A stretch of 50,272 bases of DNA from positions 1 to 50,272 of the IMG/VR virus record IMGVR_UViG_3300038441_001406; one strand, 5' to 3'. Made by a program: the position numbers and the translations under genes. Every line of letters starts with the position of its first letter. Within the stretch, counting starts at the first letter, position 1. Shown piece by piece: positions 1 to 49,819 of this stretch. A model generated the notes under the pieces. It was not told the DNA's origin, did not search any database, and saw only the letters and a list, made by a program, of their open reading frames with translations. This DNA is from a virus.

Positions 1-36
1 CCAGAAGCTTAATCGAAAAATCGATTAAGCTTCTGG
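1..36 (+). repeat. Dispersed hairpin repeat, copy 1
   Basis: This is a perfect 16-base-pair inverted repeat (1-16 with 21-36) around an AAAA loop, the longest stem of the nine copies. The core arms are AAGCTTAATCGA and its complement. It starts at the first base of the window, ahead of the gene at 70. No T-run follows, so it is not a classical intrinsic terminator. Confidence 0.95.
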
Positions 37-69
37 CCCCAGGATGTTACTCCAACCAAAGGAGTTACT

Positions 70-228
70 ATGAGTGCAGTTAAAATTCTCTGGCTCTTGG
101 CGGTCATCGCCTTCGCCATCGGAGCGCTGGCTCCAGCTTTCTTCCTTGAAGGCGGCCCGCGCTCGATCAATTGGATCAGTCTCGGTCTCTGTTTTGCTTC
201 CGCGACCTACCTCATCCACAGTCCCTGA
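70..228 (+). CDS. Small membrane protein, 52 aa
   Basis: This short gene starts at ATG 70, nine bases after a clear GGAG ribosome binding site (61-64), and ends with TGA at 226-228. The product has two hydrophobic stretches (about residues 5-21 and 32-48) separated by a short charged turn, so it should be a small two-span inner-membrane protein. The next gene begins one base after its stop, so they are probably translated together. I do not recognise a family. A position at the head-tail junction would fit a small phage membrane protein, but no function can be given. A longer reading frame through the same DNA (from 74) is rejected because this start has the ribosome binding site. Confidence 0.6.
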   Translation: MSAVKILWLLAVIAFAIGALAPAFFLEGGPRSINWISLGLCFASATYLIHSP

Positions 229-229
229 A

Positions 230-616
230 ATGAGTCTGCGCGATAACTTCCCGACCGATCTCGCCAACATCTTCATGAACACGGGAGAGATGGCGACGAC
301 GAGGGAGTTTCGCATTGCAGACGGGCTCGGCGGTTTCACTCTCTTTGCGGCCCCGGTCATTTGGGACCAAGAAGCGAGCAAAGAGATACCGCTGGTCAAG
401 ATTCACGGCGTCTACATGGGCGACGTCCGCTGCCATATCGAGGCCAAATACCTGCCTCGGATCCCGGTGGCCGGGGAGTTGATCTACTCTCCGGCCAACC
501 AGCTATGGGAAGTGCTCGATGTGACAGACGAGGAAAGCTGCTATGTTCTGGCCTTGAGCGCCACGAGATCGCAGGCTGGCAGTTACACGCCGCCAGTGAA
601 ATTCGGTAACAATTGA
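230..616 (+). CDS. Putative head-tail connector / neck protein, 128 aa
   Basis: The start at ATG 230 follows the previous stop by one base and is preferred to upstream in-frame codons, which would overlap the 52-aa gene completely. The protein begins MSLRDNFPTDLANIF. It looks like a small soluble beta-rich protein: several alternating hydrophobic strands around residues 65-115 and no membrane segment. It lies just upstream of a tail-completion gene and the sheath gene, where P2- and Mu-like phages encode head-tail joining or stopper proteins of 100-150 residues. The connector role is inferred from that position and size only; no diagnostic motif is visible. Confidence 0.6.
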   Translation: MSLRDNFPTDLANIFMNTGEMATTREFRIADGLGGFTLFAAPVIWDQEASKEIPLVKIHGVYMGDVRCHIEAKYLPRIPVAGELIYSPANQLWEVLDVTDEESCYVLALSATRSQAGSYTPPVKFGNN

Positions 617-658
617 ACCCCTCGGACTTAACAACGAAACAATGAACGAAAGGAAAAA

Positions 659-1048
659 ATGCAAATCACAATCAGTAACGCGGTGATAACCATGGATGAT
701 GGCACGACGAAAAACGCTACCATCACGGGCGACGCAGAGCTAACGCCAGACACGGGCACAGATAAGCCCCATCCGTCGCATCCAATTCTATTGCCGCCAA
801 CTTCGGATAATCCTGAGGTTATTTTCATCCTGAGCTTCTGTCCCAATCCGCCCCCGCCGCATTGGGAATGGATCGCCTTTACACCGGGATCGCCACCCGA
901 GCGGCCAACACCCAAGCCGCCAGAGCCGCCATCCACGACCCCGCCGGGTATCAAACCGCCACCGGCTGACGGAGGTTGGGGATACTGGCCTGGTTACGGC
1001 TGGGTCTATTACCCTGCTCCCGGCGGCGAAGCGGGTCCGAAGTATTAA
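659..1048 (+). CDS. Proline-rich hypothetical protein, 129 aa
   Basis: ATG 659 is preceded by the A/G-rich site GAAAGGAAAAA. Residues 1-35 look like a small beta-sandwich edge (ITISNAVITMDDGTT). From about residue 38 the chain is very rich in Pro, with PPPP runs and PEPP/TPKPPEPP segments, and it ends with a Gly/Trp/Tyr patch (GWGYWPGYGWVYYP). Such a sequence is probably extended and non-globular. It could be a virion decoration or linker protein, but I recognise no family. It sits between the neck candidate and the minor tail protein Z gene. Confidence 0.6.
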   Translation: MQITISNAVITMDDGTTKNATITGDAELTPDTGTDKPHPSHPILLPPTSDNPEVIFILSFCPNPPPPHWEWIAFTPGSPPERPTPKPPEPPSTTPPGIKPPPADGGWGYWPGYGWVYYPAPGGEAGPKY

Positions 1049-1060
1049 CGCAACTTCCTC

Positions 1061-4066: not shown

Positions 4067-4096
4067 GAAGCTTAATCGAAAAACGGATTAAGCTTC
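4067..4096 (+). repeat. Dispersed hairpin repeat, copy 2
   Basis: An 11-base-pair stem (GAAGCTTAATC 4067-4077 with 4086-4096) closes on the 8-base loop GAAAAACG. The right arm starts CGG instead of CCG or TCG, so the stem is one pair shorter than in most copies. It lies one base after the sheath stop codon and before the tube gene. Confidence 0.95.
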
Positions 4097-7488: not shown

Positions 7489-9231
7489 ATGGCACTGGCG
7501 GTCACAACGCGAGTCGCGCTTGGTGACACGACCGCTACTACGGTCTACACCACTGCCTCGTTTACGCCCACCGCCAACTCGCTCTTGATTGTCGCCCTGG
7601 AGACGAGCCGGGGCAGCAGTCTCACTCCCGATCTAGCCGTAATCACGAACAGCGGGATCTCGCTGACGTGGGTGCAGATGGCGGATCATATCTGGGGAGT
7701 TGGCAATCGCCTTACAATCTTCGGCGCCATAATCGGCTCGGCGCCCGCGGCCATGACGGTAACGGCGACCTTCGCCAATGCCTTAACGGCCTGCGGTCAT
7801 AGCGTTTTTGATGTAACTGGTTCGGATGCGGCGGCCCATGGCATCGCGCAAACACTCGTTCAAAGTGTCGTGACCACAGCCGGTTCCACCGGCCTGTCTT
7901 TAGCTCTTACGTTGGCAGCAGCGGGAAACGCGAACAATCGGCCTTTCCTTGCCGTGGTTCATAGCGTCAATGAAGTCTATACCTTAGAGACAGGGAACAA
8001 CTGGGCGCAGATCGGAGCACTAGCCGGACACAGCGGCCCGCCCGCAGGTTTCATCACAGCTTGGAAAAGCGACGGCTTTGATACTTCGGTCACGGCTTCA
8101 TGGGCCACGAGCACGGGTTACGGTGCGATCGCATTCGAGCTTAAGGCTCTGGTCGGCGGTGTATTCTCCGTCAGCGTCGACACCGCTAGTTATGCCTATG
8201 GGACCGGCACGGCCAGCGCCCGCTTTGATCGTAAGGTTACGGTCACACCCACAGCGAGCTTCGCTTATACCACTCAGAACATCGTCGGGCGCTTCAACCG
8301 CAAGGTGGTGGCTGCGCTGGCGAACTTTGCCTACGCGACTGGCAACATCATCGGCAAATACAGTCGCAAATTCATTGTCACACCGGCAGCGAGTTACGCT
8401 TATACAACGGGAAATATCATAGGCCGGTTCGGTCGCAAATTGGTGGTCACAGCGCCATCCTCGCCCGCCTTGACCTTCAATTCAGTCGCGCTGCGCAAGA
8501 ACGCTCAGCTCAGCGTTGGAGTGACAAACTTCTTATACACCGTCCCCACCAACATTGGGCTGCGGCTTAATCGCAAAGTCTCGGTGGTCACGCTGGCCCC
8601 GCCGCCTCTGACTTTCAATCCGGTTAACCTGCGCAAAGGTGCCTTCGTCACGGTCACGGTTAGCAACTACGCCTATGGCGTCGGGTCGGTCACGCTGCGC
8701 AAACATTACAAGCGAAGCATACAAGTCACCAGCTATGCTTATACAGTCCGGGATGTCACCTTAAGAAAAGGTTTCTATGTCAGCACTGGAGTTATCAATT
8801 TCGCCTACGCAACGAGCAACGTGCTCATGGCAAAAGTGTTCGGTCCGGCCGTCTTTGATAAGATCCATTTCCCGTTCGATCTCAATTCCGTCAATCTCTT
8901 ATACGAACCGATAGAGCCGGAGCCGGAGCCGGAACCCGAACCGATCCCGCTGCCCGGGCCAGTGTTACAGCCATCCCCGGGCGTGCTAAAACCGGGCGAC
9001 CAAGTCTATGTCTCTGTCCAAGGCGACATGTGGGACCTCATCTCACAGAAGGTTTATGGGATGCAGAGGGGCAGCGATCATTACCTGGATCGACTGATTG
9101 AAGCCAATCCGCAATTCAATTCCTACAATCAACTCCCGGGCGGTTTCTATATTCTCGTGCCACCTTTGCCAACACAGACAGAGATACCTCTCGTCCCATG
9201 GAAGCGAGCAACCATCCTGATTAAGACATGA
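7489..9231 (+). CDS. Tail protein X fused to a tandem-repeat domain, 580 aa
   Basis: Three parts are visible. Residues 1-220 form a Thr/Ala/Ser-rich beta domain. Residues about 224-450 hold about ten imperfect repeats of 20-26 residues, the clearest with the pattern SYAYTTGNIIGRFxRK. Residues about 501-570, after a Glu-Pro linker (PEPEPEPEP), form a LysM-like domain starting GDMWDLISQKVYG. That domain matches phage tail protein X, normally a 70-residue stand-alone protein. P2 gpX acts in tail-tip assembly. The stop overlaps the gpD-like gene (ATGA at 9228), which fits X and D acting together at the hub. The repeat domain may be surface-exposed adhesive structure (inference). Confidence 0.8.
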   Translation: MALAVTTRVALGDTTATTVYTTASFTPTANSLLIVALETSRGSSLTPDLAVITNSGISLTWVQMADHIWGVGNRLTIFGAIIGSAPAAMTVTATFANALTACGHSVFDVTGSDAAAHGIAQTLVQSVVTTAGSTGLSLALTLAAAGNANNRPFLAVVHSVNEVYTLETGNNWAQIGALAGHSGPPAGFITAWKSDGFDTSVTASWATSTGYGAIAFELKALVGGVFSVSVDTASYAYGTGTASARFDRKVTVTPTASFAYTTQNIVGRFNRKVVAALANFAYATGNIIGKYSRKFIVTPAASYAYTTGNIIGRFGRKLVVTAPSSPALTFNSVALRKNAQLSVGVTNFLYTVPTNIGLRLNRKVSVVTLAPPPLTFNPVNLRKGAFVTVTVSNYAYGVGSVTLRKHYKRSIQVTSYAYTVRDVTLRKGFYVSTGVINFAYATSNVLMAKVFGPAVFDKIHFPFDLNSVNLLYEPIEPEPEPEPEPIPLPGPVLQPSPGVLKPGDQVYVSVQGDMWDLISQKVYGMQRGSDHYLDRLIEANPQFNSYNQLPGGFYILVPPLPTQTEIPLVPWKRATILIKT

Positions 9232-10367
9232 TCGCCTCAGTCAGAAGCGCAAAGCCAGCCATCATCCTAAACGGAGCTGATTACTACAATCAGCTGGCAC
9301 CTTACTTCCTCAGTCTGGAATACAGTGACAACTGCGACGGCGAGAAAGCGGATGACTTGCAGATACAATTGGCTGACCGGGACAAGCGTTTCATCTCGGA
9401 CTGGATGCCAGACAAGGGCACCTTCCTCGATGTGAGCATTATCGCGGAGCGCTGGTTTGCTTTGAACGCGCCGGCGATCTCGCTGGACTGCGGCCGTTTC
9501 TGGATTGACTCGGTCGACTTCGAGCTGCCCGCGAACACGGTCTCAATCAAGGGCTGCTCTATCCCGACCACCGCGCACCTGAAAACGACGGACGAAACGC
9601 GAGGCTGGGAAGGCTCAACCCTGCGGGATATCGCGCAGCAGATCGCAGGGGAGAATGAGATGACTCTGGACTTTCAGAGCAGCATCAACCCGCGCTACCA
9701 ACGCATCGAGCAGGACGAAGAGAGCGGCCTGACCTTTCTCAAAACGCAGGCCAACGACGCGAAACTGGCGATCAAGATTGCGCGCAGCCAGATCATTATT
9801 TTCGACGAGGAAACTTACGAGGCTGCTGAGCCGCGGTTCAACATCGTCTATGGCGAGGGGCCGGTTGCTGGAAGCCTGCCGACCTACAAGATGGCGGGCG
9901 GGCATTTCGTGACTCACCTGATAGACACAATGAAAAAGGTGCGAATCAAACATAACAAGATGGAGACAGGCGAAGTGACGAGTGAGGAATGGACGGATGA
10001 GACAGACGAAGACTTAGACGAAGCGATCATTCAAAACCTCAACAGTGCTCTGGACTTCGAAGAAGGCGCAGAAGAGGAGGGCGGCGAGTTGCGCACCGAG
10101 GACGGCTTACTGGAAGGCTGGAACGCGGACGCCTCAGCTGGCGGGCAACTGAAAGCGAAAGGTTATCTCCGCGTGTTCAATAAAGACAAAAACAACGCGT
10201 CCGTAGAATTGGCGATCGGCAACCCGCTCATCGCCTCGGGGATGACCTGCAACGTGAGCGGCGTTGGGCAATACGATGGGAAATACTTTGTCGTCAGTGT
10301 CCAGCACAAGGTCGGCCCGATGTTCACGAGCACGCTGGAAATCCGCAAGTGTCTGAAAGGCTACTAA
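9228..10367 (+). CDS. Baseplate hub protein (P2 late control gpD-like), 379 aa
   Basis: This is the gpD/gp27-like hub at the tail end, on which the spike sits. The 379-residue length and the pattern fit the family: an N-terminal strand region ending LSLEYSDNCDGEKADDLQI, a GRFWIDSVDFE segment, then GSTLRDIAQQIAGENEMTL, the recognisable linker before the second barrel in gpD proteins. Residues about 245-295 form an unusually acidic insert (TDETDEDLDEA, EEGAEEEGGEL) not usual in P2 gpD. It overlaps the upstream X-fusion gene by four bases. Function is established for the family; the acidic insert is unexplained. Confidence 0.85.
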   Translation: MIASVRSAKPAIILNGADYYNQLAPYFLSLEYSDNCDGEKADDLQIQLADRDKRFISDWMPDKGTFLDVSIIAERWFALNAPAISLDCGRFWIDSVDFELPANTVSIKGCSIPTTAHLKTTDETRGWEGSTLRDIAQQIAGENEMTLDFQSSINPRYQRIEQDEESGLTFLKTQANDAKLAIKIARSQIIIFDEETYEAAEPRFNIVYGEGPVAGSLPTYKMAGGHFVTHLIDTMKKVRIKHNKMETGEVTSEEWTDETDEDLDEAIIQNLNSALDFEEGAEEEGGELRTEDGLLEGWNADASAGGQLKAKGYLRVFNKDKNNASVELAIGNPLIASGMTCNVSGVGQYDGKYFVVSVQHKVGPMFTSTLEIRKCLKGY

Positions 10368-10369
10368 CT

Positions 10370-10561
10370 ATGGCACCGGGAGGATACAAACCACCAAAGG
10401 AAGAACAGATGATAACAACGGCGAGCACTTGTTACTTCACTATGCCCTCTTGGGCGCGGCCTGACTACAGTGATTTAGAGCGCGAGAATGAGCTTCTCAA
10501 AAAGCAAGTGAAACAATTGCAGAGTGAAATCTTTCGCCTGCGGAGGATGGGAAAGAGATGA
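10370..10561 (+). CDS. Small coiled-coil protein, 63 aa
   Basis: ATG 10370 follows the gpD stop by two bases and has GAAAGG upstream. An internal ATG at 10409 with AAGGAAG upstream is an alternative. The C-terminal half is a leucine-zipper-like helix (LERENELLKKQVKQLQSEI) with heptad leucines, so it probably forms a coiled coil. The stop overlaps the gpV spike start (ATGA at 10558). Placement between hub and spike genes suggests a small assembly or bridging factor, but no family is recognised. Confidence 0.55.
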   Translation: MAPGGYKPPKEEQMITTASTCYFTMPSWARPDYSDLERENELLKKQVKQLQSEIFRLRRMGKR

Positions 10562-11148: not shown

Positions 11149-11155
11149 GGAGGGG

Positions 11156-11183
11156 AAGCTTAATCGAAAAATCGATTAAGCTT
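11156..11183 (+). repeat. Dispersed hairpin repeat, copy 3
   Basis: A perfect 12-base-pair stem (AAGCTTAATCGA, 11156-11167 with 11172-11183) closes on an AAAA loop. It sits between the spike gene and the gpU-like gene, seven bases after a stop codon. Confidence 0.95.
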
Positions 11184-11191
11184 AACTAGCT

Positions 11192-38244: not shown

Positions 38245-38252
38245 GAAAAAAA

Positions 38253-38303: not shown

Positions 38304-38328
38304 GAGTTAACCAGAAAGAACTATAAAC

Positions 38329-39387: not shown

Positions 39388-39684
39388 ATGAGCGGACTAA
39401 CCTGCCGCAGTTGCGGCGCTGAAGTCATCGTCGCGCAGACATCCAATAACAAGCGGATGCCAGTCGACCGGCGAGCATCTCCGAAGGGAAATATTCTGCT
39501 GGTTCATCAACCGAACAACATCCCTCGGGCCGTGGTGATTAAAGCTGAGGCGCGGGAACGTTATGCGGGCAAGCTGCGGTTGAGTCACTTCGCCACTTGT
39601 CCGAACGCGGCGCAGCATCGGCAGCCGAAAGAAAGGAGGCATCATGGCGACCAGAAAGAAACGAGCCAGACCGGACAAGCCTAA
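39388..39684 (+). CDS. Small zinc-finger-like protein, 98 aa
   Basis: ATG 39388 starts directly after the ERF stop. CRSCGAEV near residue 6 gives one Cys pair. HFATCPNAAQH near residue 67 offers His/Cys for a second site. A region of low complexity (RRHHGDQKE) ends it. It overlaps the nuclease gene by 41 bases. No family given. Confidence 0.55.
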   Translation: MSGLTCRSCGAEVIVAQTSNNKRMPVDRRASPKGNILLVHQPNNIPRAVVIKAEARERYAGKLRLSHFATCPNAAQHRQPKERRHHGDQKETSQTGQA

Positions 39685-40798
39685 CCAACATGAGATCGAG
39701 AGCGAAGGACTGCCGAGCGGCAGTTGCTTCGACTCTTGCTTCCGGTGCCCGGGGAAATGGAAGATAACGCGCCGTTTGCCCAAAGAAGATGACACCGTCC
39801 ATACCCTGAAAGGAAAGCGGATTCACGAGGCAATGGCCTCTGGTGACTTCTCCACCTTGCCGAATAAAAGCGAGCGAGACATTGCCGCGCGCATTGCTTA
39901 CGCTGAGGGAGAGATCGTCAATGAGTATAACTTCGAGGGCGCGGAAGTCGAGTTCGAGCAGCGCATCTGGGACTTCGACTTCAACTTGAACAAGACATGG
40001 TCGATGCAGATGGATCGCTACGACTGGCAACCGGACAAGCGTCGGCTCTTAGCCATCGATGACAAGAGCGGTTGGACCTTGGTCCCGCCGGTGGCGCGCA
40101 ACTGGCAAATCAGAAGCGGCGGCGCGCTCTTAGCGGAGCAGCTGGACGCCCTAGAGCTAGTCTGCGCGCTTATCCATCCGTTCAGTCCCGAGAGCTTATG
40201 GGAAGCCAAAGTCTATACGCGCCAAGAGAGCGACGCGCTCTTATCCGTGACCAGGCATCTCGTGCAACAGATCCAGCTGCCCAATCAGCGCCGCATCGTC
40301 GGCGGGATCCAATGCGAGTGGTGCGCAGCCAAGCAGGTCTGCCCCGAGTTCATTGCGAGCGAAGCGGCGCTAGACCAGAAGGTCGACGACTGGATTCAGG
40401 ACGAAGGCTTCACGGCGATCAACCGGCAGTCACCAGAAGAGCGAGCCGAGACCGTCCGAAGTTTGAAGCAGCGGTTTCGGAATATCGAGTTCGTCCTCGA
40501 TCAATACACGGAGTTAGCCAAGCGAGACGAGAGCGCCATCCAAGGCTATCGACTGGCGCGCAAATACAACGTGACGGTGGCGAACGAAGCGACAGCGATG
40601 GAGATAGCGAAGAAAGAGTTCGGCGACGAGGCCATGTATTCGGCGCTGAAATTCTCCGTTGCGGCGTTGATCGAGGAAGTGCAGACAAAGACGAGGACGG
40701 GGAAGAAAGAAGCGAAGGCAGCGGTCGAGCGAGTCTTAGGACCGCTGCTCCAATATAAGGCGTCGAAGCATTTCCTTGAGGAAGCGAGGTCCGCATAA
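39644..40798 (+). CDS. PD-(D/E)XK nuclease (DUF2800-like), 384 aa
   Basis: ATG 39644 has GAAAGGAGG upstream. Motifs seen: CFRCPGKWKITRRLP with the Cys and start of the fold, GKRIHEAMASG, QMDRYDWQPDKRRLLAIDDKSGW with the nuclease D and the D-x-K-S-G active site, and a late CEWCAAKQVC Cys group that may hold a metal cluster. Such proteins resemble phage RecB/Cas4-type exonucleases. Neighbouring ERF suggests a single-strand-annealing recombination module in which the nuclease makes 3' ends. Confidence 0.8.
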   Translation: MATRKKRARPDKPNQHEIESEGLPSGSCFDSCFRCPGKWKITRRLPKEDDTVHTLKGKRIHEAMASGDFSTLPNKSERDIAARIAYAEGEIVNEYNFEGAEVEFEQRIWDFDFNLNKTWSMQMDRYDWQPDKRRLLAIDDKSGWTLVPPVARNWQIRSGGALLAEQLDALELVCALIHPFSPESLWEAKVYTRQESDALLSVTRHLVQQIQLPNQRRIVGGIQCEWCAAKQVCPEFIASEAALDQKVDDWIQDEGFTAINRQSPEERAETVRSLKQRFRNIEFVLDQYTELAKRDESAIQGYRLARKYNVTVANEATAMEIAKKEFGDEAMYSALKFSVAALIEEVQTKTRTGKKEAKAAVERVLGPLLQYKASKHFLEEARSA

Positions 40799-41023
40799 AT
40801 GGACGACTGGGAATGGGAGTTCTTTATCGGCCGCTGGGAAGGGTTGGAGTATCCCAAGCCAGAGGATTACATGAGCCTAACCGATGATGAGCTACGCGAA
40901 GGCACAGCCAGAGCAAGAAGCGAAAAGATTAAAGGTATCCGGCGCTGGCCGTCACCACTGAGCGAGAAGCAACGGTGGTGCCTGGCCTTCTGGATCGCTG
41001 AGAACGAAGCACAATACGTATGA
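40799..41023 (+). CDS. Hypothetical protein, 74 aa
   Basis: ATG 40799 comes directly after the nuclease stop. The acidic, Trp-rich N-terminus (DDWEWEFFIGRWEGLEYPKP) and helical rest have no recognised family. The stop overlaps the next gene (ATGA). Confidence 0.55.
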   Translation: MDDWEWEFFIGRWEGLEYPKPEDYMSLTDDELREGTARARSEKIKGIRRWPSPLSEKQRWCLAFWIAENEAQYV

Positions 41024-41208
41024 CACACGACTGGAAAGACCTGACGCAAGAGTGGGCTACACCGCATGGCCGCTACTGCACGAAATGCAGGAAGCGGCAG
41101 TTCCATATCAACATGCACAACGGCCGCGGCGGCAGGTCGCGTTTTGTCTGGAGACCAAAGGTCGGTCTCTGCACCGGGAAGCCTAACCATGAGAAAAAAG
41201 AAACCTGA
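41020..41208 (+). CDS. Small Cys-pair protein, 62 aa
   Basis: Coupled by ATGA. CTKCRKRQFHINMHNG gives one Cys pair plus His. The final stretch contains another Cys (KVGLCTGK). It may be a tiny zinc ribbon. The next gene starts 20 bases before its stop. Confidence 0.5.
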   Translation: MTHDWKDLTQEWATPHGRYCTKCRKRQFHINMHNGRGGRSRFVWRPKVGLCTGKPNHEKKET

Positions 41209-41497
41209 CAAAAAAACGATAGAGAGCGTGGCCGAAGAGATCATCGGCATCGCGACCGGAGCGTTCATCAGCGCTTATATGAAACACCGGCGCGGCGAAA
41301 GTCTTGAGGCCATCCTAATCGATCTGGATATTCGCGGGGCTTACCACTCCACGGATAAAGAGACCATGAACATCATGCGGGCGGCGAGCAAGGCGGGCGT
41401 CTCTGCGCTGAAGGCCAACCTAGGACTCGATCCGGCGCTCAAACGTTTACAGTCCAGATTGGAAGCGCGCTACCAACAGGTCTTACGCGACTTATGA
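41189..41497 (+). CDS. Hypothetical helical protein, 102 aa
   Basis: ATG 41189 overlaps the previous stop region; a longer upstream frame is rejected because it runs through that gene. The chain is basic at the N-terminus and helical (TIESVAEEIIGIATGAFISAY, YMKHRRGESLEAILIDL) and ends ALKRLQSRLEARYQQVL. No family recognised. The stop overlaps the next gene (ATGA at 41494). Confidence 0.55.
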   Translation: MRKKKPDKKTIESVAEEIIGIATGAFISAYMKHRRGESLEAILIDLDIRGAYHSTDKETMNIMRAASKAGVSALKANLGLDPALKRLQSRLEARYQQVLRDL

Positions 41498-41829
41498 GAG
41501 AGAGAAACTGGCAAGAGAAGTGGGCCGAGTATCAGCGCTCGAAAGCGCGGCCTTTGAAGCCGGGCAAGCAATGGCGCTTTACGCATCGCCTCGAGATCGA
41601 TCGGAAGCAGCGCTGGCGCTGCGCCTGCGGCTATCAACTGGGAGACGGCCGCCAGCAGTTTCTGGCGCGCTGTTCCTTATACAAGGAGGACGAAGCTTAT
41701 TCGAAAAACCGATTAAGCTTAGGCACTCATGCTAAGAAGAAACAAAAAACTGCGCCAAGTCAGCGACAGGCGAGCGCTCGAACTGGCAAAGTATCGACGG
41801 AGACGACCGATCTTTTTAGGCTTGAATAG
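41494..41829 (+). CDS. Cys-bearing protein extended by a lost stop codon in hairpin copy 7, 111 aa
   Basis: ATGA-coupled start at 41494. Residues 1-68 end YKEDEA. In other repeat copies the next codon is TAA, but here the left arm has TAT (41698-41700), so the frame runs on through the hairpin and into the next gene's coding region, adding 43 residues. The final 34 codons overlap the HNH-like gene. The original end was most likely at 41700 (68 aa). One WRCACGYQ segment suggests a Cys pair. Confidence 0.6.
   Translation: MRERNWQEKWAEYQRSKARPLKPGKQWRFTHRLEIDRKQRWRCACGYQLGDGRQQFLARCSLYKEDEAYSKNRLSLGTHAKKKQKTAPSQRQASARTGKVSTETTDLFRLE
41693..41720 (+). repeat. Dispersed hairpin repeat, copy 7 (mutated left arm)
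   Basis: A hairpin with arms 41693-41703 and 41710-41720, loop AAAAAC. The left arm has T instead of A at 41700, which breaks one stem pair and destroys the in-frame TAA stop of the upstream gene. Confidence 0.95.
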
Positions 41830-42025
41830 CATCTGTGTCGCCTGCCGAATCATGGCCGCGACTCAGATTCATCATGCGGCGGGCCGGGAGGGCTGGCGCT
41901 TGCTTTACGAACCATGGTGGCGGGCGCTCTGCCATCTCTGTCATGACTATTTCACCCGACACAAACAAGAAGCAATCGAGCGCGGCATTTCACTGCCGCG
42001 CGCAACCAGGAGACCAGAGGAATGA
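41729..42025 (+). CDS. HNH endonuclease-like protein, 98 aa
   Basis: The start is ATG 41729 behind hairpin copy 7. Motifs fit a small HNH fold: CVACRIMAATQIHHAAGREG with the H-H pair, WRALCHLCHDYFTRH with CxxCH. Such HNH proteins nick DNA and occur free in phages. The N-terminus is basic (MLRRNKKLRQVSDRRALEL). There is a chance it is an inactive relative; the catalytic His and Asn cannot be confirmed by eye. Confidence 0.7.
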   Translation: MLRRNKKLRQVSDRRALELAKYRRRRPIFLGLNSICVACRIMAATQIHHAAGREGWRLLYEPWWRALCHLCHDYFTRHKQEAIERGISLPRATRRPEE

Positions 42026-42285
42026 AAGGCAGATCGAAACACAAACCAACGACAGTCAAAGAAGTCATAAGGGAATTACGAGCCGAGCAGCGCGAGAAGC
42101 GAGGGGCAGCGTTTCAAGCGCACTGTGACGGCAATTACATCCTAGAAGATTCGCTGACTTACTCAGCATGTGCGCTTCTCTTCGCAGCGCGCTTCATCGA
42201 AAGACATAAGGTGACAGCGACGACTTTGCAGCGTGCTCTGGATGAGCAGACAGCGAGGAAAGGAGCGCTGGAACACTACCGATGA
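42022..42285 (+). CDS. Hypothetical helical protein, 87 aa
   Basis: ATGA-coupled to the HNH-like gene. Mostly helical with basic ends (TVKEVIRELRAEQREKRGAA). No family or motif identified. Confidence 0.5.
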   Translation: MKGRSKHKPTTVKEVIRELRAEQREKRGAAFQAHCDGNYILEDSLTYSACALLFAARFIERHKVTATTLQRALDEQTARKGALEHYR

Positions 42286-42695
42286 ACGAACTTTTATTTC
42301 CCTGGCAATATGCCGGGATGAGTAACACAGAGCGGACCAAAGCTTACTTAAAGCATCATGGCTGGGAGTGCGAAGTGACCGAGCGCTGGAATCCCTTTGC
42401 CAAGGTGCGACAGGACTTGTTTAAGTTCATTGACGTCCTCGCGGTGCATCCCAAGGGCAAGCTGCTCGCTTTGCAGACTTGCAGCGGTGACGGCGGCGAC
42501 CCTGCGGCGCGAGTCCGCAAGATCAAGGCAAATAAGATTGCCAAACTGCTGGCGGCACACATGGAGATCGAGGTTTGGTCATGGGCCCGGCGCGGTCCCT
42601 TGAAGCGTTTCGAGGTGCGGAAGCAATCGCTTACGGCAAAGCTTCTGCCCAAGAGATCGCTGCTACGAAAGAAGATTGAGGAAGGAGAGTGGTAA
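42282..42695 (+). CDS. Resolvase/nuclease-fold protein, 137 aa
   Basis: ATGA-coupled at 42282. The stretch DLFKFIDVLAVHPKGKLLAL at about residues 45-64, followed by QTCSGDGGDPAARVRKIKAN, resembles small PD-(D/E)XK nucleases found in phages and helpful in recombination (pattern (D)-x-x-x-(F)IDxLA ... LALQxxS). The expected Glu/Lys of the active site is partly replaced (QTCS). It may still bind DNA. Neighbouring HNH and ERF genes agree with a DNA-metabolism module. Confidence 0.65.
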   Translation: MNELLFPWQYAGMSNTERTKAYLKHHGWECEVTERWNPFAKVRQDLFKFIDVLAVHPKGKLLALQTCSGDGGDPAARVRKIKANKIAKLLAAHMEIEVWSWARRGPLKRFEVRKQSLTAKLLPKRSLLRKKIEEGEW

Positions 42696-42709
42696 CTAGA
42701 AAGGAAAAT

Positions 42710-43261
42710 ATGTCGAATGAACAACGTGAGTTAGAGCTGCCCGGGGCTCGCTATTTGCTAAAGAAAGAGAAAAGAAATGAGAGAAAGAAAGAGAAAGAAG
42801 CAAAGAGAAAGAAAGAGAGCAAAGGAAAAGAGATAGAAAAAGAAAAAGTTTTTTCGCGGGCGCGAGGCCGTGGCCGGAAAAAAGACTGGGAAGCGTCCAT
42901 TGACTATGCGGACGAAGAGTTACAAGCCGAGTGGGCTGCGTTTCAGCTAAGTCGGCACCAGATGCGAAAAGATATTACCGACATCAGTCGAGGCCGCTTT
43001 ATCATGAGGCTCAGTCGCTGGACGAAAGAGAGAGCGATCGCTGCGCTGCGTTACTCAACCGAGAATGGTTATCAAGGAATCTTTGAGCCGCCAGCAGAGC
43101 GCAGAGCAGCAATGTTAACAAAACCCAATCTGCCTTGGAGCATGCGGGAACGAAAGATCAACAAACTGAATGAGCGCAAGGCAGAGCTTATGCGAGAAGA
43201 GCAAACGCCTCGAGTTGTGGCTGAGTTGGCTCGAATCCAAACTGACCTACTAGACTTATGA
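42710..43261 (+). CDS. Lys/Glu-rich protein, 183 aa
   Basis: ATG 42710 follows AACTAGAAAGG (42694-42704) by five bases. A GTG at 42689 would start earlier. Residues about 17-55 are an extreme Lys/Glu/Arg run (EKRNERKKEKEAKRKKESK), encoded by A/G-only DNA. The remaining part is helical (ADEELQAEWAAFQLSRHQMR). The charged tract may be disordered or coiled coil. No known family. The stop overlaps the next start (ATGA). Confidence 0.6.
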   Translation: MSNEQRELELPGARYLLKKEKRNERKKEKEAKRKKESKGKEIEKEKVFSRARGRGRKKDWEASIDYADEELQAEWAAFQLSRHQMRKDITDISRGRFIMRLSRWTKERAIAALRYSTENGYQGIFEPPAERRAAMLTKPNLPWSMRERKINKLNERKAELMREEQTPRVVAELARIQTDLLDL

Positions 43262-43791
43262 AAGGCAAAATACCAGAAAGCAAAAAACATCCAATGCCGC
43301 CAGAGTTTTCCGACTGGTGGTATCCGACCAATGTCGATCCAAAGACCGGGGTCAGTATCGGCGGCCATCCCGAAGCGAGCCGCATCTGGGCGCGACCATG
43401 CCCCGATGGCTACGAGCGCCGGCGCTACGGCATCACAGCGCAGCTCGCTTGGAATTGCCAAGCATATCGGATTGAGTATGACGAATGGCTGCTCATGGGG
43501 TCGCCGCCGCTGACCTTTGAGAGCTACAGCTTGCCGCTGTCGGAACAAAAGAAGCGCTGGGCAGAAGTGACTGCGCTCTTGCGTAAGATCGGTCGGGTGG
43601 CTCCGATACATCCAAAAGAGTTGCAGGACGCCAAGCTGAGCGGCGAGCGGCGGACCTTGATTGACGTCGAAGATTTACCAGAAGAGAAAACCAACAAACC
43701 AGAAAGACCAAAAGACAATGAGCAAACAGAAGAGGAAGGATATCTCCCCGGAGACGACAGCGACATCGAGCCCATCGACTTCAGCCCTTGA
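43258..43791 (+). CDS. Hypothetical protein, 177 aa
   Basis: ATG 43258 lies in the previous stop. A leader-like ACCAGAAAGC occurs 14 bases after this ATG, and an in-frame ATG at 43294 (MPPEFSDWWYP) follows it, so that start is an alternative. The chain is rich in Trp, Pro and charged residues. The last 50 residues are acidic (KDNEQTEEEGYLPGDDSD). The next gene starts inside it. Confidence 0.55.
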   Translation: MKGKIPESKKHPMPPEFSDWWYPTNVDPKTGVSIGGHPEASRIWARPCPDGYERRRYGITAQLAWNCQAYRIEYDEWLLMGSPPLTFESYSLPLSEQKKRWAEVTALLRKIGRVAPIHPKELQDAKLSGERRTLIDVEDLPEEKTNKPERPKDNEQTEEEGYLPGDDSDIEPIDFSP

Positions 43792-43981
43792 CCTGAGCGC
43801 AAGCGACGACCCGATGGGGCTGACCGGAGCGGATCACAATTACAAGCTGCTCAACCCCGAGTGGTGCCAGTGCAGCAACGTGGACCATGACATGAGCAAG
43901 ATCGCTTACTACCGAAGCGCAGAGAGCGGGATGCACGGTTGGATGTGCACTATCTGCCGGGGGATCGTGCAAACAGGCTAA
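43718..43981 (+). CDS. Cys-pair protein nested in the end of the previous gene, 87 aa
   Basis: ATG 43718 is 10 bases after AACCAGAAAGA (43697-43707), which lies in the coding part of the previous gene, and it overlaps that gene by 74 bases. The acidic start is followed by CQCSNVDHDM and a CTICRGIVQTG end, which may form one zinc ribbon. The leader within coding DNA supports the start. No family named. Confidence 0.6.
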   Translation: MSKQKRKDISPETTATSSPSTSALDLSASDDPMGLTGADHNYKLLNPEWCQCSNVDHDMSKIAYYRSAESGMHGWMCTICRGIVQTG

Positions 43982-43986
43982 CCCCT

Positions 43987-44166
43987 ATGGCAAAACACCA
44001 CGAGAAGAAACCGGAGTTAGAGCGGCCGCTGGCAGAATACGAACGAGCCTACAAGGCAGCGGAGCGCCGCTTCAACGAGACCGGCAGCTCAGCCGCTCAC
44101 AAAGAGATGTTACAAACCTTCGCCGATTGGAGGGCCGCAGCTTATGGCAAAAGATTACCCGTTTGA
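43987..44166 (+). CDS. Small helical protein, 59 aa
   Basis: ATG 43987 is chosen close to the previous stop. A helical, charged protein (LERPLAEYERAYKAAERRFN) that overlaps the YkgJ-like gene by 23 bases. No motif found. Confidence 0.5.
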   Translation: MAKHHEKKPELERPLAEYERAYKAAERRFNETGSSAAHKEMLQTFADWRAAAYGKRLPV

Positions 44167-44629
44167 GCGCAGCACCTGCGCCTGCCGGGAGTGCGTCCGC
44201 TGCTGTCATCGGCAGCCTGGTCCACTCGACAACAAGGACTTCGAAGAGATCGTTCGACATATCGCCAAAAAGCAAGGAGCGAGCCTCGAAGTTGCTTTTC
44301 AATGGGTCAAAAGCCGACTTTGCGCCAGTCCCGGTGCGGTCGTGCGAATGCCGGGCGGCGCGGTCATGCGGATTGGCTCGATTACCCCGCAGATGCGAAA
44401 GCGGAGCGACGGCGTGCGCTGCTGCGTCTTTCTCGATGAGAACGACCGCTGCACGATTCACGAAGTCTCGCCCTTCGGTTGCCGGATGTTCGATACCCAC
44501 ATGGATGGCAAGCGCGCCATGCCGCGATCAATCGCGCTGGCCCGAGCGCAGTTGGATCCGGAATACAAAGCGCTGCGGGACACACTGCCCTACGCCCAGA
44601 GTTACAGGCCGCAGAGATACCAAGCTTAA
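44144..44629 (+). CDS. YkgJ-like Cys-cluster protein, 161 aa
   Basis: The product has the YkgJ family layout: CACRECVRCCHRQPGPLDNK near residues 12-31 and CCVFLDENDRCTIHEVSPFG followed by CRMF near residues 93-115, with conserved Cys that bind zinc or an iron-sulfur cluster. The family is widespread in bacteria and known in phages, with no clear function. The TAA stop lies in the left arm of hairpin copy 8. ATG 44144 is inside the previous gene. Confidence 0.75.
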   Translation: MAKDYPFERSTCACRECVRCCHRQPGPLDNKDFEEIVRHIAKKQGASLEVAFQWVKSRLCASPGAVVRMPGGAVMRIGSITPQMRKRSDGVRCCVFLDENDRCTIHEVSPFGCRMFDTHMDGKRAMPRSIALARAQLDPEYKALRDTLPYAQSYRPQRYQA

Positions 44630-44649
44630 TCGAAAAACCGATTAAGCTT
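44622..44649 (+). repeat. Dispersed hairpin repeat, copy 8
   Basis: An 11-base-pair stem (44622-44632 with 44639-44649) closes on AAAAAC. Its left arm supplies the TAA stop of the upstream gene, and the next ATG follows three bases after the right arm. Confidence 0.95.
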
Positions 44650-44651
44650 CT

Positions 44652-44888
44652 ATGAGCAAAGCGACCAGAGCACTGAGGCAGGAACAATTGCGCCGCTTAG
44701 CGGAAGAGGCGGGCTGCGCCATCCAGCATGACTGCGGCGGTTATAGAGTCGTGCGCGAGATCGAGGGCGGCTGGCGCTACCTTTATCCGAACAGCGGCAT
44801 CTGTCCGACGCAACCGCGAAAAGCTTGCGAAGCCTTCCTGCTCGGGATGCTCTGCGAGCGGCGCGAGAGAAAGGAACAAAAACCATGA
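44652..44888 (+). CDS. Hypothetical protein, 78 aa
   Basis: ATG 44652 lies directly behind hairpin copy 8, so the ribosome binding site would be inside the repeat. The small protein has three or four Cys (EEAGCAIQHDCGGY, SGICPTQPRKACEAF). No family is recognised. The stop overlaps the next gene (ATGA at 44885). Confidence 0.55.
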   Translation: MSKATRALRQEQLRRLAEEAGCAIQHDCGGYRVVREIEGGWRYLYPNSGICPTQPRKACEAFLLGMLCERRERKEQKP

Positions 44889-45175
44889 TTGCAACCATAA
44901 CGAAGCTACTAGAGCAAAAATACGGCAACGGAGCAGAATATGTCCGCGTCACGTTTGCGGTCGCGGAGAGCATTGGCGAGAAAACGAGATGGGCCAAGAC
45001 AGACCTATGTCCGACCTATCGGAACTGGCATTACTGGAAAGACCGTCTCGAAGTCGGCGCGCAATTCATTGTCCGGATGAAAGACGACACGACAGTCGAT
45101 GCAGATTGGCGTCCGAAATATCTCGGCCAGAAACCGCCGCCCCCGCCCGATCCGCAATTAGGACTTTTCCCCTAG
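44885..45175 (+). CDS. Hypothetical protein, 96 aa
   Basis: ATGA-coupled at 44885; longer upstream frames are shadows. A compact alpha/beta protein (VRVTFAVAESIGEKTRWAKT, VGAQFIVRMKDDTTVD) with a Pro-rich tail (QKPPPPPDPQLGLFP). The tail ends QLGLFP, similar to clamp-binding Q-x-x-(L/I)-x-(L/F)-F peptides, so sliding-clamp binding is a possibility only. Confidence 0.55.
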   Translation: MIATITKLLEQKYGNGAEYVRVTFAVAESIGEKTRWAKTDLCPTYRNWHYWKDRLEVGAQFIVRMKDDTTVDADWRPKYLGQKPPPPPDPQLGLFP

Positions 45176-45227
45176 GACATAAAAACAAAACCGGAGCAAC
45201 ACGCTCCATAACTAGAAAGAAAAAAGA

Positions 45228-45920
45228 ATGAGATACATGATAGGAATAATCGCACTCTGTCTGAGTGCAACGGCATGGGCCGATACGTTCACAGGAACAG
45301 TGAATAAGTCAGCCGGGGGTGGAACATCGACCACCGCCTCGACTACGAGCACGACTGATGATTGCGTTATACTCAAGGGCACGTCTCTTGGCACGACAGT
45401 CATCAAGGCCTGCCGAGGGTCTCACCAAACCTATGCAGATGACGGTTCACTGGTAGGCACGGTGACCAAAACCGGAGGCAGCGGCGGAGGCGACCCGGGC
45501 GGTAAACACCAGAACGGTCCTGTAACCAGAGTCCGGCACATTCTGGATATGGGCGACGGTTCAGAGCCAGTAGGTATTCCTGACTGGCTTTTTGTCACCA
45601 AGGGTGATCCGAGAATCAGCGATGGTATCCATCCTTGGTCGCAGTTACATGAGATCAATGGCTGGTGGGTGTTACCTGATGGCTTCATGCTTCCCGATGG
45701 CACCACTCCCACTGGCATCACCTTCCATTGGTATAACACCATTACCAACTCCGAGGGCATATACGTTTGGGCCAACCCACTGGCAACGGGTGAGATTTGG
45801 TTCTATGGCAACGATACGGCAGGCTTCACCCTGTATAGTTACGATGTTCACATGGGCGTGTTCAGCATGGGCGGTAAAATGCCGCAAAAGAACCCGCAGG
45901 TGATGAGAGCACTGCCCTAA
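45228..45920 (+). CDS. Exported protein of unknown function, 230 aa
   Basis: ATG 45228 is seven bases after AACTAGAAAGA. Residues 1-18 are a signal peptide (MRYMIGIIALCLSATAWA, cut before D19). A Ser/Thr/Gly-rich linker (TASTTSTTDD, GGSGGGDPGG) is followed by a beta-rich domain (about residues 105-225) with WWVLPDGFMLPDGT and YDVHMGVFSMGG strands. It should act outside the cytoplasm, possibly on the cell envelope. No family recognised. Confidence 0.6.
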   Translation: MRYMIGIIALCLSATAWADTFTGTVNKSAGGGTSTTASTTSTTDDCVILKGTSLGTTVIKACRGSHQTYADDGSLVGTVTKTGGSGGGDPGGKHQNGPVTRVRHILDMGDGSEPVGIPDWLFVTKGDPRISDGIHPWSQLHEINGWWVLPDGFMLPDGTTPTGITFHWYNTITNSEGIYVWANPLATGEIWFYGNDTAGFTLYSYDVHMGVFSMGGKMPQKNPQVMRALP

Positions 45921-45932
45921 CTAGGACTCGTG

Positions 45933-45961
45933 GCCTGTGCCCCCACTCGCTCCACACAGGC
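45933..45961 (+). other. Intergenic hairpin
   Basis: GCCTGTG (45933-45939) pairs with CACAGGC (45955-45961), just after the stop of the exported-protein gene. No T-run follows. Confidence 0.6.
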
Positions 45962-45977
45962 TGCTAACCCATAAACA

Positions 45978-46190
45978 ATGAAACTAACAATGGGACAAAC
46001 AATAGTAGCATCGCTCATGATCGGCTTAGGAATCGGCCTTTTACTTGGCTTATATGTCGGCCAATACAAGCCAAGCAAGCCGACCGGAGTAAGGATAGAC
46101 AAGGCGGAAACGTGGGTGCCGCGTTACCGAATAGAGCAGCCAAGGCCGAAACCTTCACCTTACCCATCCCCAACCAGAAGGCCGCTCTAA
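45978..46190 (+). CDS. Small membrane protein, 70 aa
   Basis: ATG 45978 follows the hairpin. Residues about 6-28 are one membrane span (GQTIVASLMIGLGIGLLLGL), then a basic Pro-rich tail (RPKPSPYPSPTRRPL). It may anchor in the inner membrane. It ends two bases before the next start. No family named. Confidence 0.55.
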   Translation: MKLTMGQTIVASLMIGLGIGLLLGLYVGQYKPSKPTGVRIDKAETWVPRYRIEQPRPKPSPYPSPTRRPL

Positions 46191-46192
46191 CT

Positions 46193-46363
46193 ATGGCAAA
46201 CATCGAGACAGACCATGAGGAGATCGAGCACGGGGATTTGGTTAGGCGCAAACGATTGCTCCTAACCGCCCTGCGCGTTTGGGAATTGAAAAACGGCATT
46301 AACCAGCCTAACCACGACAGACTTAATCCCCTTGGACTACCAAGAAGAAAACGCAAGCCTTAG
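46193..46363 (+). CDS. Small hypothetical protein, 56 aa
   Basis: ATG 46193 comes directly after the membrane protein stop. The product is charged and helical (ETDHEEIEHGDLVRRKRLLL). The following gene's leader starts 11 bases after its stop. No motif found. Confidence 0.5.
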   Translation: MANIETDHEEIEHGDLVRRKRLLLTALRVWELKNGINQPNHDRLNPLGLPRRKRKP

Positions 46364-46392
46364 TGGCTTGCCTAACCAGAAAGAAAAAACCA

Positions 46393-46614
46393 ATGAAAAC
46401 AGTGAATGAACTGCGCGAGATGCTTAGTGAACAGCTCGACGCGATCAAGAACGGCACCACCACGGTGCAGAAAGCGCAGACGGTGGCAAACATCGTCGGA
46501 AAATTCCTGCACACCATCCGGTTACAGATGGACTATGTGAAGATGAAGCAAACCGTGGGCGGGAGTTTCCACATCCCGGCTTTGGATGACAAAGAGGAAA
46601 TCAAGCAGGCGTGA
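46393..46614 (+). CDS. Hypothetical helical protein, 73 aa
   Basis: ATG 46393 is eight bases after AACCAGAAAGA (46374-46384). Helical (VNELREMLSEQLDAIKNG, TVANIVGKFLHTIRLQM). Small phage proteins of this type often bind DNA or regulate, but no family is seen. The stop overlaps a GTG start (46611). Confidence 0.6.
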   Translation: MKTVNELREMLSEQLDAIKNGTTTVQKAQTVANIVGKFLHTIRLQMDYVKMKQTVGGSFHIPALDDKEEIKQA

Positions 46615-47213
46615 GAAGAAAGGGAGCGTCGCCGTCCTTATGGCTAACCGAGAAGGCGCGGAAACGAGTGGTTAGTTTGCGACGGCGGCGCTACCGCTCA
46701 CAAGAAGCGGAGGTGCGGGCCTACTATCGGCATGTCTGCAAGATCGGCTGGTATGAGCCAATGCAGAAAATACCGGCAAAGAACTTCACCGGCTGGTGCT
46801 TCGCGGCTGAGGGTGACTTCGTCTACCTGCGTCCAGCTTGTCAGGGTTACCGCAATGGTTATCCAGTGCACCATAGCCGGAGCGGCAATAGCCGAGTGAC
46901 TTTGATTGAATCGGCATGGATCGCGCAAAGTGAGGAAGCTTGGGCAAAACGATTCGTGAAAAAGTTTCACGAGCGGGCTGATGAATACGACCGCCAGTTG
47001 AAGCGCTACGACAAGCGGGGCCGCATTATAGAGTTGTTGATTAAGAAACGTTGGCGGCGCTATGGGGCAAGCTTTCGGGCAAACTTTCGCGGAACCGAGA
47101 TCAACATTGAGGAATTACCCAACGCCGTTTTGCAGTTAGCAGAAGAGTTGACCGCCCTCAGAACAGCGATAAGGAAAGTAACCAAAAAACCAGAAAGGAA
47201 ACAGATAGTATGA
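46611..47213 (+). CDS. Hypothetical basic protein, 200 aa
   Basis: The GTG at 46611 lies in the previous stop (GTGA). The protein is strongly basic (RRKGASPSLWLTEKARKRVV, SLRRRRYRSQEAEVRAYYRH) and contains CFAAEGDFVYLRPACQG. A nucleic-acid-binding role is possible. The stop overlaps the DUF932 gene (ATGA at 47210). Confidence 0.55.
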   Translation: MRRKGASPSLWLTEKARKRVVSLRRRRYRSQEAEVRAYYRHVCKIGWYEPMQKIPAKNFTGWCFAAEGDFVYLRPACQGYRNGYPVHHSRSGNSRVTLIESAWIAQSEEAWAKRFVKKFHERADEYDRQLKRYDKRGRIIELLIKKRWRRYGASFRANFRGTEINIEELPNAVLQLAEELTALRTAIRKVTKKPERKQIV

Positions 47214-48265: not shown

Positions 48266-48356
48266 GTTAGGCTCACCAAGCGAAGCATAGAACGGGGCGC
48301 GTCCTTGATGTAACGGCGTTGAGGGCGCGTCCCTAACCAACAGAAAGAAAGAACCA

Positions 48357-49211
48357 ATGAAAAAAGTATACGCAGTCATGATCGCCGGTGGCCTAACCTT
48401 GCTCGTTTTCAATCTCGGCCGGTTCGCCGTCTTGCACGCGCAGCAAGATGAGGCGCCATCAGCGCCAGTCACGCAAGCAGAGCCCAGAGCTACGCCGCAG
48501 CCAGTCGGCCAGAGTTTCACCCTTGGGTGGACCGACCCCAATCCGCAAGGCAAGGTCGCTGGTTACAAAGTGAAATACGGCCCGACGAGCGGAAGTTATC
48601 CGACCGTCGTGGATGTGCCGGGTCAAGCGGCTCCCCCGCCGGCGATGAAAACCAAAGCCTTCACCGCCATCCCAGTCGGCCCGCAGTTCTTTATCGTCAC
48701 GGCCTACAGTCCAACCAATGTGCAGAGCGCGCCCTCGGCAGAACTGCCATTGATCGTCAGCATCCCGACTCCGACGCCCACAGCGACGCCCACAGCGACG
48801 CCGACTCCGACACCAGAACCGACTCCGATACCGCCGACTAACTTTGGCGTCGTGCAGATGAGCACGCGAGCCAAGGTAGGCTCAGGGGATGAACAAATGG
48901 TGGCGAGTTTCAAAACCGATCTCAAAAGCAAGGTGGCAATCCGCGCCTTAGGTCCATCGCTCCCGGCCAGCTTGAAGCCAGTAAAAGGCACGACTCTGGA
49001 GTTACGCGACACGAACGGCGTCTTCATGGAAGCGAACAGCGGCTGGCAGACTGGCCCCGATGCAGCGGAACTGACCGCGGTCCATCTAGCCCCGCCCGAT
49101 GCCGCAGAATCCGCTTTGATTGCGACCGTGAATCCCGGGACCTACAACATCTTTGTCGGCTATACGAGCCGGACCGGGATCGGCCAGCTCGAAGTCTATA
49201 GGCTGGAGTAA
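48357..49211 (+). CDS. Exported protein with FnIII-like and verrucomicrobial-type domains, 284 aa
   Basis: ATG 48357 follows ACAGAAAGAAAG. Residues about 5-28 are a signal peptide or anchor (MIAGGLTLLVFNLGRFAVL). Residues about 50-138 fit a fibronectin type III domain (FTLGWTDPNPQGKVAGYKVK, then FFIVTAYSPTNVQSAPS). A Thr-Pro linker follows (about 140-162). Residues about 165-284 (MSTRAKVGSGDEQMVASFKT, IRALGPSLPASLKPVKG, PGTYNIFVGYTSRTGIGQLE) resemble a C-terminal domain frequent in Verrucomicrobia exported proteins, which use RALGPSL and PG-x-Y patterns. A host-derived surface protein is likely; its role for the phage is unknown. Confidence 0.7.
   Translation: MKKVYAVMIAGGLTLLVFNLGRFAVLHAQQDEAPSAPVTQAEPRATPQPVGQSFTLGWTDPNPQGKVAGYKVKYGPTSGSYPTVVDVPGQAAPPPAMKTKAFTAIPVGPQFFIVTAYSPTNVQSAPSAELPLIVSIPTPTPTATPTATPTPTPEPTPIPPTNFGVVQMSTRAKVGSGDEQMVASFKTDLKSKVAIRALGPSLPASLKPVKGTTLELRDTNGVFMEANSGWQTGPDAAELTAVHLAPPDAAESALIATVNPGTYNIFVGYTSRTGIGQLEVYRLE
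48766..48840 (+). repeat. Thr-Pro codon repeat
   Basis: Units of ACGCCC/ACAGCG encode the [16 protein letters not shown] linker between the two domains of the exported protein. It is similar to the linkers at 14321, 18571 and 20536. Confidence 0.8.
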
Positions 49212-49232
49212 ACAGAGAAAGAGAGGTAAACA

Positions 49233-49490
49233 ATGCAAGATCAAGAACGGAAGAGAAGTGTCCGCTGCGGAGCAATCAAGCTGGATCGATTTAGTGGCGA
49301 GAAGATCCAGTGCGAAGGCTTGCGTGGGCATCACAGCGCTCATTACAGCAACGATGAGTGGTGGCCGAACCCGAACGGATACCCGAATAACATGGGCCAG
49401 ATGCACCGCGGCTATAGATGGCTCGCGCTGGGCTTCGCAGCCTTCTGCCTGGCTGTCGTCATCTTGGCCTTCTGGATCGCGTTGCGATGA
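49233..49490 (+). CDS. Small membrane protein with Cys/His head, 85 aa
   Basis: ATG 49233 has GAGAGG upstream. The first part has CGAIKLDRFSGEKIQCEGLR followed by GHHSAHYS, which could bind zinc. Residues about 63-84 (LALGFAAFCLAVVILAFWIA) form a membrane span. The stop overlaps the next gene (ATGA at 49487). Confidence 0.55.
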   Translation: MQDQERKRSVRCGAIKLDRFSGEKIQCEGLRGHHSAHYSNDEWWPNPNGYPNNMGQMHRGYRWLALGFAAFCLAVVILAFWIALR

Positions 49491-49663
49491 GCGAGGAAGA
49501 GTTCGTTGAGGCAGTGCTCACCATCACGCAGCATGATACAGGTGCCAGCCGCCGAGCCAATCTTAGAGCATTGCACAAAAAACTGCGCGAAGAACTGGCA
49601 TACGAACTCTCGCAGTGGGTTGACAAGCACAGCAGTAAGGCCGTCACTACTGCGGACCAATAA
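49487..49663 (+). CDS. Small helical protein, 58 aa
   Basis: ATGA-coupled to the membrane protein gene; a longer upstream frame is a shadow. Helical and charged (EEEFVEAVLTITQHDTGASR, LRALHKKLREELAYEL). No function visible. Confidence 0.5.
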   Translation: MSEEEFVEAVLTITQHDTGASRRANLRALHKKLREELAYELSQWVDKHSSKAVTTADQ

Positions 49664-49791
49664 GGCTCCGTCGATCATTGAGGCCGATGTGACTGAGATC
49701 ACTTGCTGGCGCGAGTAATGTCGGGCCAGAACGGACAGCGTGACCGGCGGAGCCGACCACCCCTTCAGAGCAACTCGTTTCGACTTCCAAG

Positions 49792-49819
49792 AAGCTTAAT
49801 CGAAATACCGATTAAGCTT
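49792..49819 (+). repeat. Dispersed hairpin repeat, copy 9
   Basis: An 11-base-pair stem (49792-49802 with 49809-49819) closes on loop AAATAC. It lies in a 209-base gap after the previous gene and is the only copy far from a stop codon. Confidence 0.95.

Follow-up and report, generated by a model that had tools for sequence, protein, structure and literature searches.

Dispersed, phage-specific palindromes in a group of tailed-phage contigs: candidate recognition sites for a ParB/KorB-like protein

KorB from plasmid RK2 is a ParB-family clamp, a cytidine triphosphatase (CTPase), that slides from its OB operators and silences at a distance (PMC11790492). Phages, too, use genome-wide sets of sites read by one protein, as illustrated by the stoperators of cluster A mycobacteriophages (PMC6550527) and the SPBRE element of SPbeta (PMC10516654), and mobile elements widely encode ParB-fold proteins that have no ParA partner (PMC12704722). 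Here we analyze a 50,272-base viral contig (IMG/VR record IMGVR_UViG_3300038441_001406; the window, hereafter, is this whole stretch), in which nine near-identical palindromes are dispersed and a ParB/KorB-like protein, P0001, is encoded. From sequence comparisons and a predicted structure, we put at roughly 0.7 the probability that the palindromes are double-stranded DNA recognition sites, parS- or operator-like, for P0001 as an orphan ParB/KorB-type clamp.

The likeness to KorB and OB lies in a ParB fold with a helix-turn-helix, KorB being one of the best structural matches to P0001, and in multiple short palindromic sites dispersed over a mobile replicon, whereas the differences are that the replicon is here a tailed-phage genome, that the 26-28-bp sites vary by phage, that no ParA (IncC) or KorA-like helix-turn-helix partner was found in the contigs searched, and that silencing is putative. 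The IR1-4 centromere sites of N15 are dispersed on a prophage-plasmid genome, and phiC31 has conserved inverted repeats (CIRs) dispersed in its genome, as here, although the phiC31 repressor is not ParB-like. In the N15 SopB/IR1-4 system (PMC7205306), a ParB-type protein encoded by the phage is likewise paired with several distinct inverted-repeat sites, but N15 has four of these plus the SopA ATPase, whereas we find no ParA and as many as 16 sites, frequently at even spacing. Cluster A stoperators (PMC6550527) resemble the present sites as genome-wide, phage-specific motifs that diverge with their binder and are mostly found in one orientation; they are, however, 13-bp asymmetric motifs, tied to transcription direction and read by another protein family, while the sites described here are palindromic and, in two relatives (G010 and G008), oriented independently of gene direction. 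The SPBRE/MrpR system (PMC10516654) also relies on an intergenic element that recurs across the prophage and is bound by a single phage protein, but it involves a 15-bp motif, promoter regions and a repressor of tyrosine-recombinase fold. Orphan phage ParBs have a ParB fold without parA, as here, and the available part of their description mentions no dispersed site set (PMC12704722). What is unusual in the present case is thus a ParB-type reader without ParA, together with even spacing and phage-by-phage co-divergence.

Palindromes of the window and of related contigs

The window holds nine copies of a 28-bp palindrome, AAGCTTAATCG-N6-CGATTAAGCTT, six of them exact and three with one arm mismatch; there are no further copies in the 50,272-base record, and 100 shuffles of the window gave none. 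This bears out an earlier sequence-only reading, which had reported nine near-identical hairpins, with five start coordinates right and four off by 1-4 nt. As the stem is AT-rich and no T-run follows any of the nine copies, that reading was also correct in stating that they are not ordinary terminators, and we agree that they are not random insertions. No Rfam family was matched and no tRNA was found in the window, while the 28-mer gave a single chance-like match in public genomes, in an unrelated marine bacterium.

The phage continues to the left on contig L010 (8,531 bases; L012 in gene orientation), which shares a 69-base perfect overlap with the start of the window and encodes the capsid, protease, portal and terminase. 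The two were taken as one phage on the basis of this short overlap and of a gene order matching that of relatives. This contig holds the window's first copy plus a tenth one, downstream of the terminase gene (L012:2734), in the opposite orientation and with a T-rich centre on the coding strand. At the window start, CCAG at positions 1-4 mirrors CTGG at 33-36 and yet disagrees with the L010 sequence, so that the longer palindrome spanning 1-36 probably reflects a break and an artefact of assembly at the repeat. Moreover, within 70-616, an ATG at 70 opens a 52-codon frame, while the conserved neck protein is read in a different frame, from 74 onwards; a frameshift or an error of sequencing close to this end of the contig may be responsible. 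When the left half of the window was compared with cultured phages by Megablast, no match was obtained, and the nearest cultured terminases are less than 50% identical.

Searches with capsid and sheath gathered approximately 90 related contigs, with proteins mostly 55-78% identical. Many of these have no such repeat, and others carry a dispersed palindrome of their own, for example CCCTTATATTGAATTCAATATAAGGG in G005, AGCTTATCATGAATTCAAGATAAGCT in G007, AGCTTATCTGCATTTGGTGATAAGCT in G010, AGCTTAGCGTGAAAACACGCTAAGCT in G011, CAGTTATCCTGAAAACGGGATAACTG in G017, CAACTATCTTGAATTCAGGATAGTTG in G016 and AAGGTTAATTAAATTTAGTCAAAGCT in G008, with 6-16 copies per long site-bearing contig. The common layout is 26 bp long, with an AT-rich centre flanked by outer half-sites in which positions 4-6 are usually TTA. 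When a TTA/TAA rule was applied (fixed positions, at least 9 of 11 arm pairs), 47 distinct 26-mers were retrieved from the window and relatives, compared with a median of 2 when other trinucleotides were used. The palindromes are near-identical within one phage and different between phages, even at the same junction, e.g., upstream of the tail gene at 11192, where a syntenic site of diverged sequence was found in at least seven related contigs. A sequence-reading factor evolving together with its sites would give this pattern.

Other repeats were observed in these contigs. In G001, G002 and G004, which are free of sites, the 12-mers that recur are promoter-like motifs of TTCCACTTGYGC type beside early genes, and were discarded as they do not form a dispersed palindrome set; they may reveal the host promoter type. 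In G016 (L107), seven copies of AGGAGACACCTATG lie across the ribosome-binding site and start codon of genes of one region (8950-12875).

Orientation, folding and placement of the sites

All nine window copies have their A-rich centre on the + strand, from which the sequence-only reading had argued towards RNA. The single orientation stands for the window, but does not hold for the whole phage, because the tenth copy is reversed; the argument also fails the comparison with related phages on which it depended, as orientations are mixed in G007 (3/3), G011 (3/2), G017 (5/3) and G016. In G010 and G008, the early genes lie on the opposite strand, yet the sites keep a single orientation along the contig (16/16 and 10/10 scorable, respectively), which indicates that orientation follows the genome and not the transcript. 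We consider it improbable, on these grounds, that the palindromes act as transcript hairpins with the A-rich loop in the sense strand, serving as processing sites, 3'-end stabilizers or terminators. Strong folding of the window copies (-13.1 and -14.1 kcal/mol) and their common strand would suit such a role. Most other sites fold too, but no RNA fold was predicted for the commonest site of G008 (-0.3 kcal/mol, z 0.5), and sequences conserved within a phage and changed between phages point to reading of sequence, not of structure alone; the lack of an Rfam match and of a T-run argues in the same direction. Overall, the palindromes are best read as DNA elements, and of the three roles that had been suggested for them, only protein binding is supported, and neither processing nor a part in RNA 3' ends is.

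Folding of the RNA may nonetheless be of local importance. At the junction of the 11192 type, the site lies between the Shine-Dalgarno sequence and the ATG in eight contigs (the window, G007, G008, G011, G017, G019, L064 and L100), so that spacing would be normal only with the palindrome folded in the mRNA. Translation control was rejected as the function, since most other sites have no such arrangement, and the folding was taken as a tolerated by-product of palindrome placement.

In eleven contigs, gene junctions hold 64 of 91 sites, against 10.0 expected; genes were called with a simple script, and some of the in-gene sites are calling errors. The proposal that the copies mark functional units is true only in a loose sense, as they do sit at gene junctions, but what stands out across relatives is their even spacing. 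The coefficient of variation of the intervals is 0.17 in G005, 0.23 in G019, 0.24 in G008, 0.27 in G017, 0.35 in G010 and 0.36 in G007, i.e., more even than random placement at junctions, for which it is about 0.7-0.9. It was not significant in the window, G011 and G016, and the smallest gap between sites exceeds expectation in the window and G016. Typical intervals are 2-6 kb in most relatives, reaching 15 kb across very long genes. Even spacing suggests that genome coverage matters; it would be unexpected for operators placed by regulatory need alone, and hints at a coverage function.

The same data bear on two further explanations. The palindromes could be selfish or mobile repeats (REP/MITE-like) that serve no purpose for the phage, which would suit the near-identical copies at many junctions, but a site is retained at orthologous junctions even as its sequence changes along with the phage, the spacing is even, and presence is tied to one gene module, making this the least probable of the explanations considered. 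Replication, recombination or packaging sites for the ERF/nuclease early module are also very unlikely, though slightly less so: the ERF and nuclease genes co-occur with the sites nearly as well as ParB does, and the constant orientation in G010 and G008 would suit a polar process, but orientation varies in other site-bearing phages, spacing is even genome-wide with no clustering at an origin, and no ERF protein is known to read a 26-bp palindrome.

The ParB-like protein and its association with the sites

P0001 matches the PHROG ParB-like partition family (1.6e-9), and the best matches of its predicted structure are ParB, Noc and KorB, spanning the N-domain and the helix-turn-helix. The model aligned with pNOB8 ParB with a Z of 10.7 over 166 amino acids (residues 6-189) and with KorB (8qa9) with a Z of 9.1 over 153, while residues 6-98 matched ParB N-domains with a Z of about 10.5 over 85. 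Since these alignments reach residue 189-193, the helix-turn-helix is included, and the family alignment shows a conserved stretch in this element (GSVAxxIAKxAGVSxHKxxQAEKxRK). P0001 can thus be assigned to the ParB superfamily by a predicted N-terminal ParB/Srx fold and a central helix-turn-helix. GxxR and N..RR motifs are present in the alignment of the ParB-like proteins, and CTP binding and clamp closure are putative. Reading six aligned ParB-like proteins revealed no ParA-binding motif, defined as (L/F/I)G(K/R)G(L/F/I) in the ParB N-terminus (PMC12704722). No full-length relative of P0001 was found in cultured phages or plasmids, and distant ParB homologs (L165-L168; 25-31% identity) have no such sites.

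Among 20 relatives searched, ParB orthologs were found only in G005, G007, G010, G011 and G016, besides the window. All six bearers have sites, and nine long contigs without the gene have no comparable palindrome family (Fisher 0.0009, with G008 counted as having sites without the gene, and uncorrected for relatedness). Two predictions were borne out: whereas sites had already been recognized in G005, G007, G010 and G011, G016, a bearer without obvious sites, gave six variant sites on a broader look, and L159, a new contig retrieved by a six-protein ParB profile alone, carries five. This alignment-based scan of viral contigs succeeded where one with P0001 alone found no match. In addition, a site lies at most 40 bp downstream of the ParB gene in G007 and G011, and within about 220 bp in G005, G010, G016 and L159.

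ParB proteins and sites diverge in parallel. Distances between site sets correlate with ParB distances (r 0.59, exact permutation p 0.04), and track neither sheath (r -0.31) nor head closure (r 0.04). At the level of residues, an xHK pattern in the helix pairs with inner TG..CA in four phages, and three phages without xHK also lack inner TG..CA; RKG pairs with CACC/TGC in two phages, and KST with the CGA..TCG of the window. This helix/site pairing is suggestive.

A different reader would be needed if the palindromes were stoperators or phiC31-CIR-like sites, at which the immunity repressor of a temperate phage, distinct from the ParB-like protein, blocks transcription genome-wide. Layout, site number, phage-specific motifs and a co-varying reader do resemble cluster A stoperators (PMC6550527) and SPBRE/MrpR (PMC10516654), and a repressor of unrecognized fold may read the sites. 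Nevertheless, no tyrosine or serine recombinase and no CI/HTH_3-type repressor above cut-off were found in the site-bearing contigs searched, the only tyrosine integrase occurring in G009, a site-free relative, and the sole helix-turn-helix-bearing gene seen to track the sites is the ParB-like one. We thus regard this explanation as unlikely, albeit less so than the others discussed.

Several points weigh against P0001 as the reader. Its Pfam ParB_N match (0.0023) is under the curated cut-off, and the model is of moderate confidence (predicted local distance difference test, pLDDT, 71.5; predicted template modelling score, pTM, 0.54). Classic parS is 16 bp long, shorter than the 26-28-bp sites found here. 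The helix/site link rests on seven proteins. Because ParB, the small partner gene and the ERF/nuclease early module occur as a set, ParB is not singled out by co-occurrence alone. Three contigs with sites (G008, G017 and G019) carry no ParB gene, G008 and G017 ending before its expected locus. Finally, no ParA was found in the window and 13 relatives, contigs that are possibly incomplete, with PF13614 as the only partition NTPase family searched by itself.

Proposed action, neighbouring features and significance

Taking P0001 as the reader, a dimer would recognize the two inverted half-sites through its helix-turn-helix, and the CTP-closed clamp could then move outwards from each site over a few kilobases of flanking DNA, in the manner known for ParB and KorB. 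Given intervals of 2-6 kb, loaded clamps could cover much of the genome. We infer such binding, CTP-dependent sliding and the resulting output from the comparison with known clamps; the output is likely KorB-like genome-wide transcription control or organization of phage DNA, rather than ParABS partition, which is unlikely because no ParA and no ParA-binding motif were seen. A more far-reaching version, which we propose tentatively and at somewhat less than even odds, is that an orphan ParB-type clamp without ParA loads on an even lattice of phage-specific sites and coats the whole phage genome as chromatin or a global silencer, with site and helix-turn-helix co-diversifying as an identity code.

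The features of the window are collected in Table 1. The small protein that co-occurs with the ParB-like gene is predicted to be alpha/beta with no helix-turn-helix seen, and a KorA-like partner was thus not found in it, other partners being possible. The region 26496-32126 is an operon resembling those for 7-deazaguanine (queuosine-like) DNA modification. A leader, AACCAGAAAGA, occurs in about 14 copies (at most one mismatch) at 33107-47188, on the + strand only and mostly just upstream of early-gene ATGs, as an unusual ribosome-binding or early control motif. PTPTPT-like proline-threonine linkers are present in a 2,289-codon gene (15717-22586) and elsewhere, including 48761-48837.

Table 1. 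Palindromic sites and selected genes of the window
Feature	Coordinates	Strand	Description
Site 1	5-32		AAGCTTAATCG-AAAAAT-CGATTAAGCTT, exact; follows the capsid gene (on L012) and precedes the first neck gene; the same copy is found at L012:8463-8492
Site 2	4068-4095		After the tail sheath gene, which stops at 4065, and before the head-closure gene, which starts at 4119
Site 3	11156-11183		Between AAGGAGG and ATG of tail gene 11192
Site 4	26449-26476		Begins at final base of tail-fibre gene stop (24734-26449); next gene 26496
Site 5	32119-32146		Overlaps stop of GTP cyclohydrolase gene
Site 6	37456-37483		Early region of small genes, upstream of ERF/nuclease module
Site 7	41693-41720		Between AGGAGG (41684) and ATG 41729
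Site 8	44622-44649		Overlaps stop of gene 44144-44629; following ATG 44652
Site 9	49792-49819		Intergenic; after 49506-49718, before 49873-50211
TGT-like	27867-28886		7-deazaguanine-like operon
QueC	28868-29536		7-deazaguanine-like operon
PTPS/QueD	30153-30587		7-deazaguanine-like operon
GTP cyclohydrolase	31278-32126		7-deazaguanine-like operon
Second ParB/Srx-like protein	27301-27987		Within 7-deazaguanine-like operon region
Small conserved protein	34690-35079	+	About 100-130 amino acids, start codon uncertain; co-occurs with ParB-like gene
P0001, ParB/KorB-like	35611-36357	+	248 amino acids; ParB N-terminal fold and helix-turn-helix (predicted); proposed site-binding protein

This phage clade supplies seven naturally occurring combinations of a ParB-like protein with its presumed site set, and relatives that have neither serve as built-in controls. 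The clade thereby makes testable the action of a clamp on a whole small genome, be it silencing, organization or protection, as well as the residues that set site choice.

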